Assembly: GCF_038087665.1 (NCBI RefSeq)
Contig: NZ_CP149925.1
Location: forward strand, 2,108,870-2,172,869
Reading direction: 5' to 3'
Origin: Gallaecimonas sp. GXIMD4217
Lineage (GTDB): Bacteria; Pseudomonadota; Gammaproteobacteria; Enterobacterales; Gallaecimonadaceae
DNA: 64,000 nt
Shown here: positions 19,426 through 24,766 of the stretch, piece after piece
Layout of the letters: every line of letters starts with the position of its first letter
Numbering within the stretch: the stretch's first letter is position 1
Translations under genes and position numbers: made by a program
The notes under the pieces: generated by a model
Seen by the model: only the letters and a program-made list of their open reading frames with translations
The model's database searches: none
Told to the model about the DNA's origin: nothing

Positions 19426-19455
19426 AAAAAGGCCCTTCCGGGGAAGGGCCTTTTT
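19426..19455 (-). terminator. Intrinsic terminator of the TSP3-repeat lipoprotein gene
   Basis: The stem AAGGCCCTTCC/GGAAGGGCCTT is flanked by A and T runs, ten bases past the stop of the repeat gene. Confidence 0.88.
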
Positions 19456-19465
19456 GCGCCTCGGC

Positions 19466-22400
19466 TCAGGATGCCGGCGGCGCCACACAGAGGGCGTAGA
19501 CATTCAGGTCTTTCAGCGCCCCCAGCACGGCGGCCTTTTCCAGCTCCACCTCGTCGAAATCCTGGGTCGTTTCCATGATCACCAGCTGGCGTGTGGCGTC
19601 ATTGAACAGGCCCAGCAGCTGCAGGCCCAGCAGGCCACCGCTGTCGCTGTTTTCCTGCTCGGCGCCATTGAGGTAGGTGGTGATCCCCAGGTTGGCCAGT
19701 AGGCTCACGTCCAGCTGGCCACCCGGCGACGACACCAGGAAGCCGACCCGCTTGGCCCCCGTATAGCTGGTGTTGCCGTCCTCCACGCTGGCCCAGAGGC
19801 TCGCCGCCACCGCCGCGGGCGTGGTCATGAGCCCGGCATTGTTCATATTGGTGTCGACGATATTGCCGGCGTCACTGATACCACAGCCCAGGCAAACAGC
19901 GCCACGCTGTCCCGTGGTCACGCCGACCCCCGTACCCACCACCGGCTCGAACAGCAGGCCGGCGCCACAGGCGATGTTTTCCTCGCTGTCGCAGACATCG
20001 CCAATGCCGTCGCCGTCGGTGTCGGCCTGGTCGGCGTTGGCATTGAGCGGACAGTTGTCGGCACCATCGAGTATGCCGTCGCCATCATCGTCCGTGTCGC
20101 AGGCGTCACCCAGGCCATCGCCGTCGGTGTCGGTCTGGTCGACATTGGCGGTCAGCGGGCAGTTGTCGGCACCGTCCAGGACGCCGTCACCGTCATCGTC
20201 GCCGTCGCAGACATCACCGACGCCGTCACCATCGGTGTCGGTCTGGTCGGCGTTGGCGTCGACAGGGCAGTTGTCGGTGCCGTCCGTGACGCCGTCACCA
20301 TCATCGTCGTCGTCACAGACGTCACCCAGGCCGTCGCCATCCAGGTCGGCCTGATCGGCATTGGCCACGGCCGGACAGTTGTCGGCACCGTCGTCGATAC
20401 CGTCACCATCGCTGTCGGTGTTGGCGTCGCAGGCGTCGCCTATGCCGTCGCCGTCGGTGTCGAGCTGGTCGGCATTGGCGGTCAGCGGGCAGTTGTCGGC
20501 GCCGTCCAGCACGCCATCGCCATCGTCGTCATCGTCGCAGGCATCGCCCAGGCCGTCACCGTCGGTGTCGAGCTGGGAGGGGTTCGCCGTCAGCGGGCAG
20601 TTGTCGGCACCGTCGCTGACACCGTCACCGTCATCGTCGCTGTCACAGGCATCACCAATGCCGTCGCCGTCGGTGTCGGTCTGGTCGGCATTGCCGGTCA
20701 GCGGGCAGTTGTCGACACCGTCGCCAACGCCATCGCCATCGTCATCGCCGTCACAAAGGTCACCTTGCCCATCGCCGTCCGTATCGAGCTGGGACGGGTT
20801 GGCGGTAACGGGGCAATTGTCGCTGCCGTCGAGGACACCGTCACCGTCGTCGTCGGCATCACAGGCGTCGCCTTGACCATCGCCGTCGAGGTCGGACTGG
20901 CCGGGGTTGGCCACGGCCGGGCAGTTGTCACTGCCGTCGGCGATGCCGTCGCCGTCCGAGTCGGTCAGGGGATCGCAGGCGTCCCCCAGGCCGTCGCCAT
21001 CGAGATCGCTCTGATCGGCATTGGCATTGACCGGGCAATTGTCGGCGCCATCGCTGATGCCGTCGCCATCGTCATCGTTATCGCAGAGATCGCCCAGGCC
21101 GTCACCATCGAGATCGCTCTGGTCGGGATTGGCCACGGCCGGGCAGTTGTCGCTGCCGTCGTCGATGCCATCGCCGTCGCTGTCGGTATTGGCATCACAG
21201 GCATCGCCCAGGCCGTCGCCGTCACCGTCCGCCTGGTCGGCGTTGGGAGTCAGCGGGCAATTGTCGGCACCGTCGGAGACGCCGTCGCCATCATCGTCAC
21301 CGTCACAGGCATCGCCCAGGCCATCGCCGTCGAGATCGCCCTGACCGGGGTTGGCCGTCACCGGACAGTTGTCGCTACCGTCGCTGATGCCGTCGCCGTC
21401 GTCATCGCTGTCGCAGGCATCCCCCAGGCCGTCGCTGTCGGTATCGGTCTGGCTGGGGTTGGCGGTCAGCGGACAGTTGTCACCGGCATCGGCAATGCCG
21501 TCACCGTCATCGTCGGCGTCACAGGCGTCGCCGAGACCATCGCCGTCGCTGTCCTGCTGGCCGGTGTTGACGGTCAGGGGGCAATTGTCGGCACCGTCGA
21601 GGACGGTATCGCCATCGTCGTCGGCGTCACAGGCATCGCCCTGGCCATCGCTGTCGGTGTCGGTCTGGTCGGGGTTGGCGGTCAGGGGGCAGTTGTCCAG
21701 GTCATCCTGGATGCCGTCACCGTCATCGTCACTGTCACAGACGTCGCCCTGGCCGTCACCGTCGCTGTCGATTTGAGCACCGTTGGCCTGCAGTGGGCAG
21801 TTGTCGACATCATTGTCGACACCGTCACCGTCCCTGTCGTCGTCGCAGGCGTCACCTATGCCGTCGCCATCCTGGTCACTCTGGCCCGGGTTGGCGACGA
21901 CGGGGCAGTTGTCGACGCCGTCATCGACACCGTCACCGTCACTGTCGGTGTTGGTATCACAGGCATCCCCGACACCATCGAGATCGCCATCATCCTGGCT
22001 GGGATTGGCGATCAAGGGGCAGTTATCACTGTCGTCATCAACACCATCGCCGTCATCGTCCGAGTCGCAGGCATCACCCGAGCCGTCCCCGTCGGTGTCG
22101 GTCTGATCCGGATTCACCTGCAATGGACAGTTGTCGCTGCCATCACTGATGCCGTCGCCATCATCGTCGGAATCACAGGCATCGCCCACACCGTCACCGT
22201 CGGTGTCGCTCTGGCCTGGGTTGGCGTTGACCGGGCAGTTATCCAGATCATCCTGGATGCCATCACCATCGTCGTCGGCATCACAGACATCGCCCTGGCC
22301 GTCGCCATCGGTATTGCTCTGTTCCGGATTGGCATTGACCGGGCAGTTGTCGCTGCCGTCGCCGACGCCGTCACCGTCATCATCGGCGTCGCAGGCATCG

Positions 22401-23749
22401 CCCTGGCCGTCGCCGTCCAGGTCCGCCTGATCGGGATTGGCGGTCACAGGACAGTTGTCGCCACCGTCCTCAATACCGTCACCATCGGTATCGGTATTGG
22501 TATCACAGGCATCGCCGATACCGTCGCCATCGGCGTCTTCCTGCCCACTGTTGGCGGTAAGGGGGCAATTGTCGGCGCCGTCGTCGAAACCGTCACCATC
22601 GTCGTCGTTGTCACAACTATCACCCAGGCCGTCTCCATCGGTATCGGTCTGCTCAGGGTTGGCGGTTAGGGGACAATTGTCGTTGCCGTCCGTGACGGCG
22701 TCGCCATCGTCATCGCCATCACAGGCATCGCCGATGCCATCGCCGTCGGTATCGGTCTGGGATGGGTTGGCGACCGCCGGGCAATTGTCGACATCGTCGT
22801 CAAAACCGTCCCCGTCCGAGTCGCCATTGCTGTCGCAGGCATCACCTATGCCATCACCATCGGCATCGGCCTGATCGGCATTGCCGATGGTGGGACAGTT
22901 GTCGGCGCCATCGAGGACGCCGTCATTGTCATCGTCGTCATCACAGGCATCGCCAGTGCCGCCACCGTCGCTGTCGGTCTGATCGGCATTGGCGATCAGT
23001 GGGCAGTTGTCGACATCGTCGTTGATGCCATCGCCATCGTCATCACTGTCGCAGACATCCCCCAGACCGTCATTGTCCCTGTTTATCTGGTCCGGATTGA
23101 CCTGGGCAGGGCAGTTGTCATTGCCGTCTTCGACACCGTCACCGTCGGTGTCCTCTGCGCTGTCACAGGCATTGCCCACGCCATCGCCATCGCGATCCGC
23201 CTGGTCGGGATTGGCTACCAAGGGGCAGTTGTCGATATCGTTGGCGATATCGTCGCCATCGATATCGTTGTCGCAGGCATCCCCCTGGCCGTCTTCATCC
23301 AGATCCGCCTGGTCGGTGTTGGCGTCATCGGGGCAATTGTCCGCCTCGTTGAGTACGCCGTCGCCGTCGCGGTCGTCATCACAGGCATCACCTATGCCGT
23401 CGCCGTCGCGGTCTTCCTGTTGCGGGTTGGGCTCGGTGGGACAGTTGTCGACATCGTTGGCAATGCCGTCATCATCATTGTCGTCCGGGACCTGCCCGCC
23501 GCCCTCGACATCACAGACATCGCCCAGGCCGTCGCCGTCCGCATCCGCCTGATCGGCATTGGACGTGGCCGGGCAATTGTCGGCATTGTCCGGAACGCCA
23601 TCACCATCCGTGTCCTGGACCACGGGGCCGGGCTCCACCGCGGCGGGCTCGCCGTCGGCACGGCAACCTGACAACAACAGCAGGCACAGCAGCGCTGACA
23701 ACAGCAAGGGGCCACTGCCCCACAAAGATCCTTGCTTGCATCCGTTCAT
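19466..23749 (-). CDS. Giant lipoprotein with 33 thrombospondin type-3 calcium-binding repeats
   Basis: The 1427-residue product has a lipoprotein signal (LSGC, lipidation at Cys29), then an unbroken array of thrombospondin type-3 repeats from about residue 45 to 1257. I count 33 DNCP units, each followed by a DxDGDGxGDxCD calcium-binding loop; the cysteine pairs and aspartates are strongly conserved. About 170 C-terminal residues have no repeats, contain several cysteines (CGAG, CLGCG, ALC) and do not match a domain I recognise. The protein is extremely acidic and should form a rigid, calcium-stabilised rod anchored to a membrane. It begins nine bases after the beta-barrel gene ends, which suggests one operon. 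Function is unknown; adhesion, matrix or envelope-spanning roles are possible. Confidence 0.88.
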   Translation of the reverse strand: MNGCKQGSLWGSGPLLLSALLCLLLLSGCRADGEPAAVEPGPVVQDTDGDGVPDNADNCPATSNADQADADGDGLGDVCDVEGGGQVPDDNDDDGIANDVDNCPTEPNPQQEDRDGDGIGDACDDDRDGDGVLNEADNCPDDANTDQADLDEDGQGDACDNDIDGDDIANDIDNCPLVANPDQADRDGDGVGNACDSAEDTDGDGVEDGNDNCPAQVNPDQINRDNDGLGDVCDSDDDGDGINDDVDNCPLIANADQTDSDGGGTGDACDDDDDNDGVLDGADNCPTIGNADQADADGDGIGDACDSNGDSDGDGFDDDVDNCPAVANPSQTDTDGDGIGDACDGDDDGDAVTDGNDNCPLTANPEQTDTDGDGLGDSCDNDDDGDGFDDGADNCPLTANSGQEDADGDGIGDACDTNTDTDGDGIEDGGDNCPVTANPDQADLDGDGQGDACDADDDGDGVGDGSDNCPVNANPEQSNTDGDGQGDVCDADDDGDGIQDDLDNCPVNANPGQSDTDGDGVGDACDSDDDGDGISDGSDNCPLQVNPDQTDTDGDGSGDACDSDDDGDGVDDDSDNCPLIANPSQDDGDLDGVGDACDTNTDSDGDGVDDGVDNCPVVANPGQSDQDGDGIGDACDDDRDGDGVDNDVDNCPLQANGAQIDSDGDGQGDVCDSDDDGDGIQDDLDNCPLTANPDQTDTDSDGQGDACDADDDGDTVLDGADNCPLTVNTGQQDSDGDGLGDACDADDDGDGIADAGDNCPLTANPSQTDTDSDGLGDACDSDDDGDGISDGSDNCPVTANPGQGDLDGDGLGDACDGDDDGDGVSDGADNCPLTPNADQADGDGDGLGDACDANTDSDGDGIDDGSDNCPAVANPDQSDLDGDGLGDLCDNDDDGDGISDGADNCPVNANADQSDLDGDGLGDACDPLTDSDGDGIADGSDNCPAVANPGQSDLDGDGQGDACDADDDGDGVLDGSDNCPVTANPSQLDTDGDGQGDLCDGDDDGDGVGDGVDNCPLTGNADQTDTDGDGIGDACDSDDDGDGVSDGADNCPLTANPSQLDTDGDGLGDACDDDDDGDGVLDGADNCPLTANADQLDTDGDGIGDACDANTDSDGDGIDDGADNCPAVANADQADLDGDGLGDVCDDDDDGDGVTDGTDNCPVDANADQTDTDGDGVGDVCDGDDDGDGVLDGADNCPLTANVDQTDTDGDGLGDACDTDDDGDGILDGADNCPLNANADQADTDGDGIGDVCDSEENIACGAGLLFEPVVGTGVGVTTGQRGAVCLGCGISDAGNIVDTNMNNAGLMTTPAAVAASLWASVEDGNTSYTGAKRVGFLVSSPGGQLDVSLLANLGITTYLNGAEQENSDSGGLLGLQLLGLFNDATRQLVIMETTQDFDEVELEKAAVLGALKDLNVYALCVAPPAS
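19982..23620 (-). repeat. Tandem coding repeats (TSP3 array)
   Basis: About 3.6 kb consists of 33 degenerate units of roughly 105-117 bp. Units differ at many synonymous positions but repeat the codons for DNCP and DGDG. Variants with an NTDSDGDG insert recur at several points, pointing to block duplications inside the array. Confidence 0.9.
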
Positions 23750-23758
23750 GGTCAGCTC

Positions 23759-24292
23759 CTATTCCAGGGGAAATTCGAAACCCAGGCCAAACTGCCAATC
23801 CAGGTAGTTGTCATTGAAGGTGTCGTAGAAGACCCGGAACTCGGTTCTTATGCGGATCTTCGAAGGCCCCAGTTCCCTGGAAACCAAGCCGGCGGCGCCA
23901 TTGAGAAAGGCGGAGGTTTCATCCCTGGCATCCGGGATGACGTCGTTGTATACGGCGCCCAGGCCAAAGGACAGATAGGGGGTCATGCCACCGTCGGAAT
24001 CGAAGTTGTACCTGGCATCCAGCCCCAGGCCGGTTTGATAGAAGTCGGTCATGGCTGGCGTGTCGGTTTCCAGGACCAGATGGAATAACTGGGCCTCGTA
24101 TTGCCAGTTACCCTTGAGCTTCCAACCGTAGAAAGCCCGCAAGCCGAAGCCATGCTCATCGGTCTGCCGGTCTTTGTCGGCACCGACAAAGGTCGGCAAT
24201 ATGCTGGCATTGAGGGGTTGGAATGATTCGCTTTGGCTGAACAGGGGCAGGCAGGCGCAGCAGATGCCGAGACAGTAAGACGTTCTTCTCAT
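23759..24292 (-). CDS. Small outer-membrane beta-barrel protein
   Basis: The 177-residue product has an N-terminal signal sequence (hydrophobic YCLGICCACLPLFSQS) and alternating aromatic/hydrophobic strands typical of an eight-stranded barrel, such as FGLRAFYGWKL, YEAQLFHLVL, PYLSFGLGAVY and a C-terminal strand DWQFGLGFEFPLE. This resembles the transmembrane half of OmpA-type proteins that carry TSP3 repeats in Shewanella and Vibrio relatives, here without any repeats of its own. AAGGA lies eight bases before the ATG. The gene precedes the TSP3 lipoprotein by nine bases, so barrel and rod may assemble. Exact family not identified. Confidence 0.7.
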   Translation of the reverse strand: MRRTSYCLGICCACLPLFSQSESFQPLNASILPTFVGADKDRQTDEHGFGLRAFYGWKLKGNWQYEAQLFHLVLETDTPAMTDFYQTGLGLDARYNFDSDGGMTPYLSFGLGAVYNDVIPDARDETSAFLNGAAGLVSRELGPSKIRIRTEFRVFYDTFNDNYLDWQFGLGFEFPLE

Positions 24293-24508
24293 CAGAGGGG
24301 TCCTTTTTATAGGCCTTCGTTCCTATCGCCCCTGAGATTAGTAAAGGGAAACCTTATTTTTCTTCCGTCAAAGCCTTATTTAACTCTTTTCACACGGCAA
24401 CTTGAGCCCTTTCTCAGAACCGTCATCTTATTCAACAACAACGCCTATCTTCTTCTATTCTTTAGGGTTTTGGTCAGGTGCATACAGGCACTGCGATGGC
24501 CGGCTCCC
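24293..24508. other. AT-richer upstream region of the barrel/TSP3 operon
   Basis: No gene is visible. The stretch is clearly less GC-rich than its surroundings and should contain the promoter for the minus-strand operon; a TTGACG occurs on the minus strand but no convincing -10 partner follows at 16-18 bases. Confidence 0.4.
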
Positions 24509-24766
24509 TTAGTCACCGGCCAGGGCCTTAGTGAAGTGACGCTCGGCCTCGTCCTGCCTTGCCAGCGCCAGCAGTTGCTCCCCCTTTCGATGTCGGCATG
24601 GGGAGTTGCCGGCATCAAGTGCCGGGCCTGGGCCAAAGCCTGGCGACTTGCCGCCATGTCGCCCTGGTAGGCCAGCTTGAAGGAGCGCTTTCGGGGCCCT
24701 GGGGGTCTGGGCACAGGCACTAAGCAGCAGGCACAGAACGGCCCGGACGGCTCCAGAAAACATCAT
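24509..24766 (-). pseudogene. Broken small TPR-like lipoprotein gene (two compensating frameshifts)
   Basis: The minus strand opens with ATGATG and a lipoprotein signal (CLLLSAC, Cys18) followed by AQTPRAP. The sensible continuation is then in the next frame: KLAYQGDMAASRQALAQAR, HLMPATPHADIE. It returns to the first frame for GEQLLALARQDEAERHFTKAL and a stop. The combined protein is a coherent TPR-like helical lipoprotein of about 85 residues. The shifts fall near CCCC and GGGGG runs, an extra base then a missing base. Either the gene is decayed or the sequence has homopolymer errors. Confidence 0.6.

Follow-up and report, generated by a model that had tools for sequence, protein, structure and literature searches.

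A lone outer-membrane barrel and a 33-unit thrombospondin type-3 lipoprotein with a predicted discoidin-like head: a candidate surface-binding gene pair in Gallaecimonas

Why should an outer-membrane barrel of the OmpA family stand as a gene of its own, followed after nine bases by a long lipoprotein of thrombospondin type-3 (TSP3) repeats, when barrel, TSP3 repeats and OmpA domain are one protein in its closest relatives outside the genus? The question is raised by a locus on the reverse strand of a 64,000-nucleotide stretch of Gallaecimonas sp. GXIMD4217 (contig NZ_CP149925.1, hereafter the window), part of a 3.35-Mb genome labelled G000. Our tentative answer is that the pair may encode a surface adhesin, anchored by lipid and stiffened by calcium, to which the barrel serves as outer-membrane partner, a reading whose probability we put at roughly 0.48, slightly below even odds. 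We refer to the lipoprotein as the rod and to its C-terminal domain as the head; the features of the locus, in window coordinates, are as follows.

23759 to 24292, minus strand: barrel gene, a bare OmpA-family-type outer-membrane beta-barrel of 177 residues.
23750 to 23758, minus strand: spacer of 9 bases between barrel stop and rod start.
19466 to 23749, minus strand: rod lipoprotein gene, 1427 residues.
23663 to 23749, minus strand: lipoprotein signal peptide with lipobox LSGC, Cys29 followed by Arg (by eye and regular expression).
19988 to 23611, minus strand: TSP3 array of 33 DNCP units of 36 or 38 residues (motif count and Pfam).
19469 to 19987, minus strand: C-terminal head, residues 1255-1427, a predicted discoidin/CBM32-like jelly roll (AlphaFold2, Foldseek and VIA-align).
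19426 to 19455, minus strand: terminator-like hairpin after the rod gene and ahead of the MiaE gene (folding energy).

The original prediction had described a barrel gene, nine bases, and then a lipoprotein with 33 TSP3 units and its own lipid anchor, and this description is borne out by the open reading frames and by Pfam. The TSP_3 family (PF02412) covers 34 stretches of the rod with 1044.9 bits against a cut-off of 25, far above chance, and no other Pfam family is found in the whole protein. The 33 DNCP units follow each other at 36 or 38 residues, with a first gap of 44, and each holds about two cysteines and two DxDxDG-type loops; 63 DxDxDG-type motifs, putative calcium-binding sites, were counted in total. 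By sequence the rod matches structures of thrombospondin-2, COMP and thrombospondin-1 in the PDB (best E 1e-62). The predicted lipid anchor follows from a lipobox, LLLLSGC with Cys29, of the kind that defines bacterial lipoprotein signals, and the corresponding rods of two other genomes of the genus carry LTAC (G003) and LSAC (G002).

These two relatives, with rods of 1532 (G003) and 1540 (G002) residues, allow a comparison of repeat number between genomes, as had been proposed. With a looser anchor for the recount across the genus, the window rod has 33 units and the rods of G002 and G003 have 36 each. When the lists of unit spacings are slid along each other, 30 of 31 positions are equal between the window and either relative, and 33 of 35 between G002 and G003; none of 20,000 shuffles matched any of these agreements. 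By this register, the window rod has one unit more on the N-terminal side and four fewer on the C-terminal side than the other two. Protein identity between units points the same way, being 0.757 and 0.767 at an offset of -1 for the window against the two relatives (0.70-0.73 elsewhere) and 0.808 at offset 0 between G002 and G003 (0.72-0.74 at other offsets). The single best matches of individual units are scattered between genomes (Spearman 0.13-0.56), and the register is therefore visible in averages and spacing, not unit by unit. Thus, in these three genomes, a small sample, the array seems to behave as a fixed structure more than as a slipping repeat, and the collinear 36/38 spacing makes the length of the rod look conserved between species. 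The array as a product of chance or misassembly is rejected, since three genomes carry it. The idea that the length of the device is set by repeat number, on the other hand, finds no support in this genus: unit number is nearly constant and spacing is collinear, and nothing seen suggests tuning.

We now turn to the barrel. Pfam identifies it as OMP_b-brl (PF13505; E 1.9e-7, 31.8 bits against a cut-off of 28.7) and finds no OmpA domain in its 177 residues, of which approximately the first 23 form a signal peptide by eye. Its profile matches 33 of the 369 genomes sampled from the class of the window, its own included. Outside its own genome 44 matches were found, of which the 19 best were examined as loci, together with the barrel of locus L070 in genome G123 and two in locus L077. 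By motif, all 19 best relatives outside the genus are proteins of barrel, TSP3 and OmpA type: each has one to five TSP3-type motifs and an NRRV ending, and 18 of the 19 have a GHTD-like motif, both of which we take to be marks of the OmpA-type C-terminal part. A Pfam scan of ten barrel proteins, including that of G464 and the second one of G123, placed OmpA above cut-off in ten, the barrel in seven and TSP_3 in five. Of the L070 barrel and the two in L077, one has only a divergent OmpA-like end. The expectation that the three parts are often one protein in related bacteria was thus correct, as was the statement that barrel and rod are separate here; because its relatives are of the three-part type, the most fitting view of the window barrel, judged from sequence, is that of a three-part protein that has lost all but the barrel. 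The closest match in the class outside the genus (E 2.8e-30) is a G123 barrel that is itself paired with a head gene.

Other searches with the barrel were negative: no PDB chain was matched by sequence and no plasmid was matched, and the 142 pattern matches in viral contigs yielded no confirmed case. A single-sequence AlphaFold2 model of the barrel was poor (predicted local distance difference test, pLDDT, 51; predicted template modelling score, pTM, 0.42) and was not used.

The head is the part that the original prediction could not recognise, and as far as profile databases go this stands. The search of the C-terminal 173 residues returned no Pfam or NCBIfam family, and 16 diverse head members gave no consistent match to either database and none to CBM32 or F5/8 type C at E up to 0.1. 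No PDB chain was matched by sequence at E up to 1. The fold is nevertheless recognisable in a model. AlphaFold2, given the window head with 13 copies from Bacteroidota, predicts a mainly beta structure with two short helices (pLDDT 83.3, pTM 0.84). The first 14 Foldseek matches of this model are CBM32, CBM29, lectinolysin and CBM11 modules (E 9.9e-5 to 9.6e-4, the best being 2v72 at 9.9e-5), with modest TM-scores of 0.43-0.47 by query length. VIA-align places it closest to the lectin domain of lectinolysin (4gwj; Z 12.1 over 129 residues, root-mean-square deviation 3.2) and to a fucose-binding module (2j1r; Z 11.8), followed at about 9.2-10.8 by CBM32, chitosan-binding, IFT25 and other entries, the CBM32 and CBM29 ones at about 9.2-10.4. 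The predicted structure is thus a discoidin-like jelly roll whose nearest counterparts are lectin modules that bind fucose. A modelled fold of this kind does not in itself imply sugar binding. The window head has no histidine, and its four cysteines (positions 7, 32, 35 and 167) are invariant within the genus.

Relatives of the head are found both in Bacteroidota and in the class of the window. The genome scan yielded three Bacteroidota proteins, from Tenacibaculum (L015), Dyadobacter (L016) and Fibrivirga (L017), which contain six, five and two head copies, respectively, 25-33% identical to the window head. In two of these three, type IX sorting domains (CHU_C, Por_Secre_tail) are present, and among the best stretches listed none of the above-cut-off families overlies the head copies. 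In the phylum of Tenacibaculum, 17 of 198 genomes have the head, the seed included, and two of the frames listed hold a stop. Five of the 369 genomes sampled from the class, the window's own included, have it. So does the whole G123 family (four genomes), together with 7 of the 17 genomes of the G375 family; no plasmid was matched.

We tabulated 33 head proteins of the class. The lipobox expression fits 27 of them, some perhaps at the wrong cysteine, and near-fits that it missed are visible by eye in G123 L068, G464 L105 and G465 L109. The number of TSP3-type motifs per protein ranges from 0 to 69. In the 25 proteins used for an architecture count, from which the two tandem copies of G401 were excluded, these motifs lie ahead of the head in 19 and behind it in none. 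The protein ends at most 31 residues past the head in 19 of the 25; in the other six, all of the G375 family, about 390-410 residues follow. The head thus tends to sit at the end of the protein.

A midpoint-rooted tree of 66 head rows was built from the 33 loci and the window rod, excluding weaker matches in L107, L108, L112, L115, L122 and L123 and dropping matches above E 1e-6 or shorter than 115 model positions. The heads of the window genus cluster together (support 99/95), within a group of 17 rows (96/88) that also holds the G375-family heads, G465 L109 and two Bacteroidota copies. G465 L109 is the sole long-rod protein of the G123 family, with 14 units, and the short f52 lipoproteins fall apart from this group.

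Several architectures were observed alongside. The four genomes of the G123 family have three to five head matches each (L068-L071, L105-L115, L122, L123), mostly small lipoproteins with a single head, which suggests that the family has diversified locally. Three head-bearing TSP3 genes stand in a row in G375 (L073 3160-10884, plus strand; 1026, 726 and 509 residues) and in G476 (L121 6481-15975, minus strand; 1010, 726 and 871 residues by position), and the 726-residue type has a leucine-rich repeating tail of about 390 residues behind the head. G401 (L072 4400-8722, minus strand) encodes a protein of 1440 residues with two heads near the N-terminus and then, by eye, cadherin-like repeats; no lipobox was found in it by regular expression, and its heads group with Bacteroidota copies. 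The window genome has three other TSP3 proteins: L020 3210-5288 (minus, 692 residues), L022 3208-5559 (minus, 783 residues) and L021 (G000:C1:2611041-2611571, plus, in an open frame of 408 residues). None of the three has a head, and G000 yields a single head match.

The original prediction turned in part on whether the two genes are paired in relatives too. Among 99 genomes of the genus and order, the head occurs in G000, G002 and G003 only, and the barrel in the same three. Within the genus, three of five genomes have both genes and two (G001, G004) have neither, while neither gene is matched in the other 94 genomes. The neighbourhood is syntenic across the five genomes of the genus, with the MiaE gene on one side and a purF-like gene on the other, as Pfam identifies them in the window, and between these flanks no barrel or rod is present in G001 and G004. 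In the three carriers the spacer measures 9 (window), 11 (G002) and 12 (G003) bases; the barrels of G002 and G003 are 54-55% identical to that of the window and the heads 62-64%. The tight linkage of the two genes is therefore conserved at one locus. It also recurs in a second, distant genus: in G123 and G464 a gene for barrel and OmpA domain immediately precedes the gene of a lipoprotein that has a head and a single TSP3 unit. OmpA is above cut-off in both of these partner barrels, whereas TSP_3 is weak in that of G464 (22.8 bits against 25) and present as a motif only in that of G123. All five paired barrels lie directly upstream of the head gene on the same strand.

Given the 9-base spacing, we infer that barrel and rod are probably read on one transcript. 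The hairpin 10 bases beyond the rod stop has a 13-bp stem, a loop of 4 and a TTTTT end (-20.9 kcal/mol); it is only moderately above dinucleotide shuffles (z -2.26, 6 of 200 equally good) and is absent from the output of a generic scan. The MiaE gene after it lies on the same strand as the rod gene.

Further observations concern the neighbourhood. Just upstream of the barrel, at window positions 24445-24766 (minus strand), are two overlapping short frames, one of which begins like a lipoprotein (LLLSAC). In G002, G003 and G004 a lipoprotein-like gene of 381-384 residues, with TPR by Pfam in G003, stands between a Yip1 gene on one side and either the barrel or the MiaE gene on the other; tblastn with the G003 TPR protein found nothing convincing in the window. 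In G001 (L036 8625-9798) the interval from the purF-like gene to the MiaE gene contains neither barrel nor rod, and neither the TPR nor the Yip1 gene.

How might such a pair work? In the reading that we favour, the two genes would form a single operon encoding a device that grapples at the cell surface. The rod would be held in the outer membrane by the lipid at its N-terminus, its 33 TSP3 units stiffened by calcium and disulfides, and the head at the far C-terminal tip would bind a ligand, whether a glycan, a polymer of the envelope or another head. The small barrel at the foot of the rod would be the outer-membrane partner, holding the foot or helping to expose the rod. Surface exposure, stiffness, ligand binding and contact between barrel and rod are inferred in this reading, which draws its support from the conserved linkage, the pair in a second genus, the predicted head fold, the position of the head at the end of the protein and the conserved unit spacing. 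A location at the surface is further supported by the type IX sorting domains on head relatives in Bacteroidota. Of the original suggestion of a surface or envelope-spanning device, therefore, the first half fares better: the lectin-type fold predicted for the head favours binding at the surface over spanning of the envelope.

The arrangement is uncommon, combining known parts with a domain that neither Pfam nor NCBIfam names, and the open-licence full text in PubMed Central (PMC), a part of the literature, returned no publication describing such a pair of TSP3-rod lipoprotein and barrel. A likely fold can now be given to a domain covered by neither database that recurs in Bacteroidota and in some genomes of the window's class. 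The pair is also a compact two-gene candidate for how an OmpA-type barrel might cooperate with a lipoprotein on the surface of the cell, and the conserved rod of 33-36 units offers a natural test of selection on stalk length. A bolder proposal, which we consider somewhat unlikely, is that the locus is a separately evolved contact system resembling TraAB outside the myxobacteria, in which the stripped barrel would serve as a dedicated port or socket, the TSP3 array as a stalk of fixed length and the uncatalogued head as the part that recognises partner cells or surfaces.

Several observations weigh against the favoured reading, and some of them suit another explanation, rather unlikely in our view, in which the rod works at the surface as an adhesin by itself and has the barrel only as an operon neighbour, with no physical complex. 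A barrel lies beside the head gene in only 5 of the 33 head proteins; for the other 28 none was seen within 8 kb in the stretches read, whose flanks vary in length, down to a contig of 3.2 kb. G375-family rods of up to 18 units have no adjacent barrel in those stretches, and no barrel match lies within the stretches of G375 and G476 that hold three tandem head genes. Since most head proteins are unpaired, the barrel is dispensable for the class of head proteins as a whole. Other bare barrels without a rod probably exist too, because five of the 25 weaker barrel matches (E 1.4e-5 to 3.1e-4; genomes G141, G286, G402, G405 and G148) are in open frames of 197-249 residues. The next-best barrel match (E 6.7e-23) is in the same G123 genome as the best one and has no head gene in its stretch, so that closeness of the barrels is in part closeness of genomes.

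The trees are equivocal as well. In a barrel tree of 26 rows, from which L049, L050 and L052 were omitted as second copies of L068, L074 and L076, the two paired clades are nearest to each other, but the fork is weak (83/84), includes two unpaired long branches and does not resolve them as one clade; the paired heads fall in separate parts of the head tree. A single origin of the pairing was accordingly set aside. Finally, the generic scan listed no sigma-70-like promoter immediately before the barrel, and the His/Arg fucose motif of F-type lectins (H-x26-R-x-D-x4-R/K), searched in relaxed form, is present in none of the 66 heads. What speaks for more than neighbourhood is that the genes are linked in all three carriers of the genus and jointly absent from the other two, and that G123 and G464 provide a second paired case. 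The chance expectation of such adjacency is roughly 0.01 over 30 proteins, on the assumed figures of 3,000 genes and two barrels per genome.

Alternatively, the lipoprotein could face inward as a periplasmic ruler or tether, with the rod crossing the periplasm, the head on peptidoglycan or an inner-membrane partner and the barrel a plain outer-membrane co-factor. By the sorting rule of E. coli, Arg after the lipidated cysteine allows sorting to the outer membrane, with the periplasmic face as the default, and the rod has Arg after Cys29. A length that is nearly constant between species would suit a ruler, and the relatives of the barrel bear OmpA peptidoglycan-binding domains. We nonetheless regard this explanation as unlikely: head relatives occur in secreted Bacteroidota proteins, 33 units of about 36 residues would seem too long for the periplasm if extended, and other head lipoproteins have 0 to 18 units, which is ill-suited to a fixed gap.

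An interlocked pair resembling RcsF, with the N-terminal linker threaded through the lumen of the barrel, lipid and rod on opposite faces and a role as sensor of strain or ligand, is improbable. RcsF complexes with OmpA and a transmembrane orientation in beta-barrel proteins have been described (PMC7553776, PMC4942254), and in the rod 16 linker residues separate Cys29 from the first calcium motif; among the genes listed beside the pair, however, none was recognised by eye as a signalling gene. We give next to no weight to a calcium store or acidic matrix protein, with the charge of the rod (421 Asp and Glu against 13 Lys and Arg) as a calcium sink and the head only as an anchor, as a mere sink would not need unit spacing kept position by position.

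We therefore return to the surface adhesin with its barrel partner and compare it with known systems. The window barrel has the N-terminal OMP_b-brl domain of OprF/OmpA-like proteins and lacks their C-terminal peptidoglycan-binding domain; these proteins join barrel, TSP3 and OmpA parts in one chain, whereas in the window the barrel ends alone and the TSP3 units are on the neighbouring lipoprotein. The signature domain of thrombospondins resembles the rod in having TSP3 units followed by a C-terminal beta-sandwich, but the rod is a bacterial lipoprotein with 33 units, and its head is modelled as discoidin-like, while the thrombospondin globe has a different, L-type-lectin fold. With F-type lectin (CBM47) and CBM32 modules the head shares a predicted discoidin-like jelly roll, and differs in having no Pfam match and, in all 66 heads, no F-type motif. 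The Bacteroidota proteins L015, L016 and L017 share its domain family, there as tandem copies with DUF11, Ig or cadherin-like domains and in the window as a single copy on a lipid-anchored TSP3 rod. RcsF with OmpA-type barrels, as described, offers a second model for the union of a lipoprotein with a barrel.

The closest counterpart is TraA/TraB of Myxococcus xanthus. As described, TraB consists of barrel, TSP3 and OmpA parts (preprint PMC12045341; layout also in PMC6372800), TraA is a cysteine-rich shaft with a beta head, and the two are 1:1 in complexes (PMC12045341); other work cited in that preprint has TraB without its OmpA domain still form foci and support adhesion. Like the window pair in the reading proposed here, TraA/TraB is a two-gene operon that combines an OmpA-family barrel with a long surface protein stiffened by cysteines and bearing a beta-rich head. 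The window genes, barrel first, are adjacent and on the same strand, an arrangement shared by their relatives. The TraB layout resembles the barrel partner in G123 and G464, and differs from the window barrel, which has neither TSP3 nor OmpA parts. TraA, according to the same text, bears a PA14-related head at its N-terminus and is anchored by MYXO-CTERM, whereas the window protein has a lipobox, a TSP3 rod and a C-terminal head modelled as discoidin-like; neither a PA14-like head nor MYXO-CTERM was found by Pfam in the whole rod or by NCBIfam in its C-terminal 173 residues. Compared by described domain layout, the best reading may be that the window pair works like TraA/TraB without being a member of that system.

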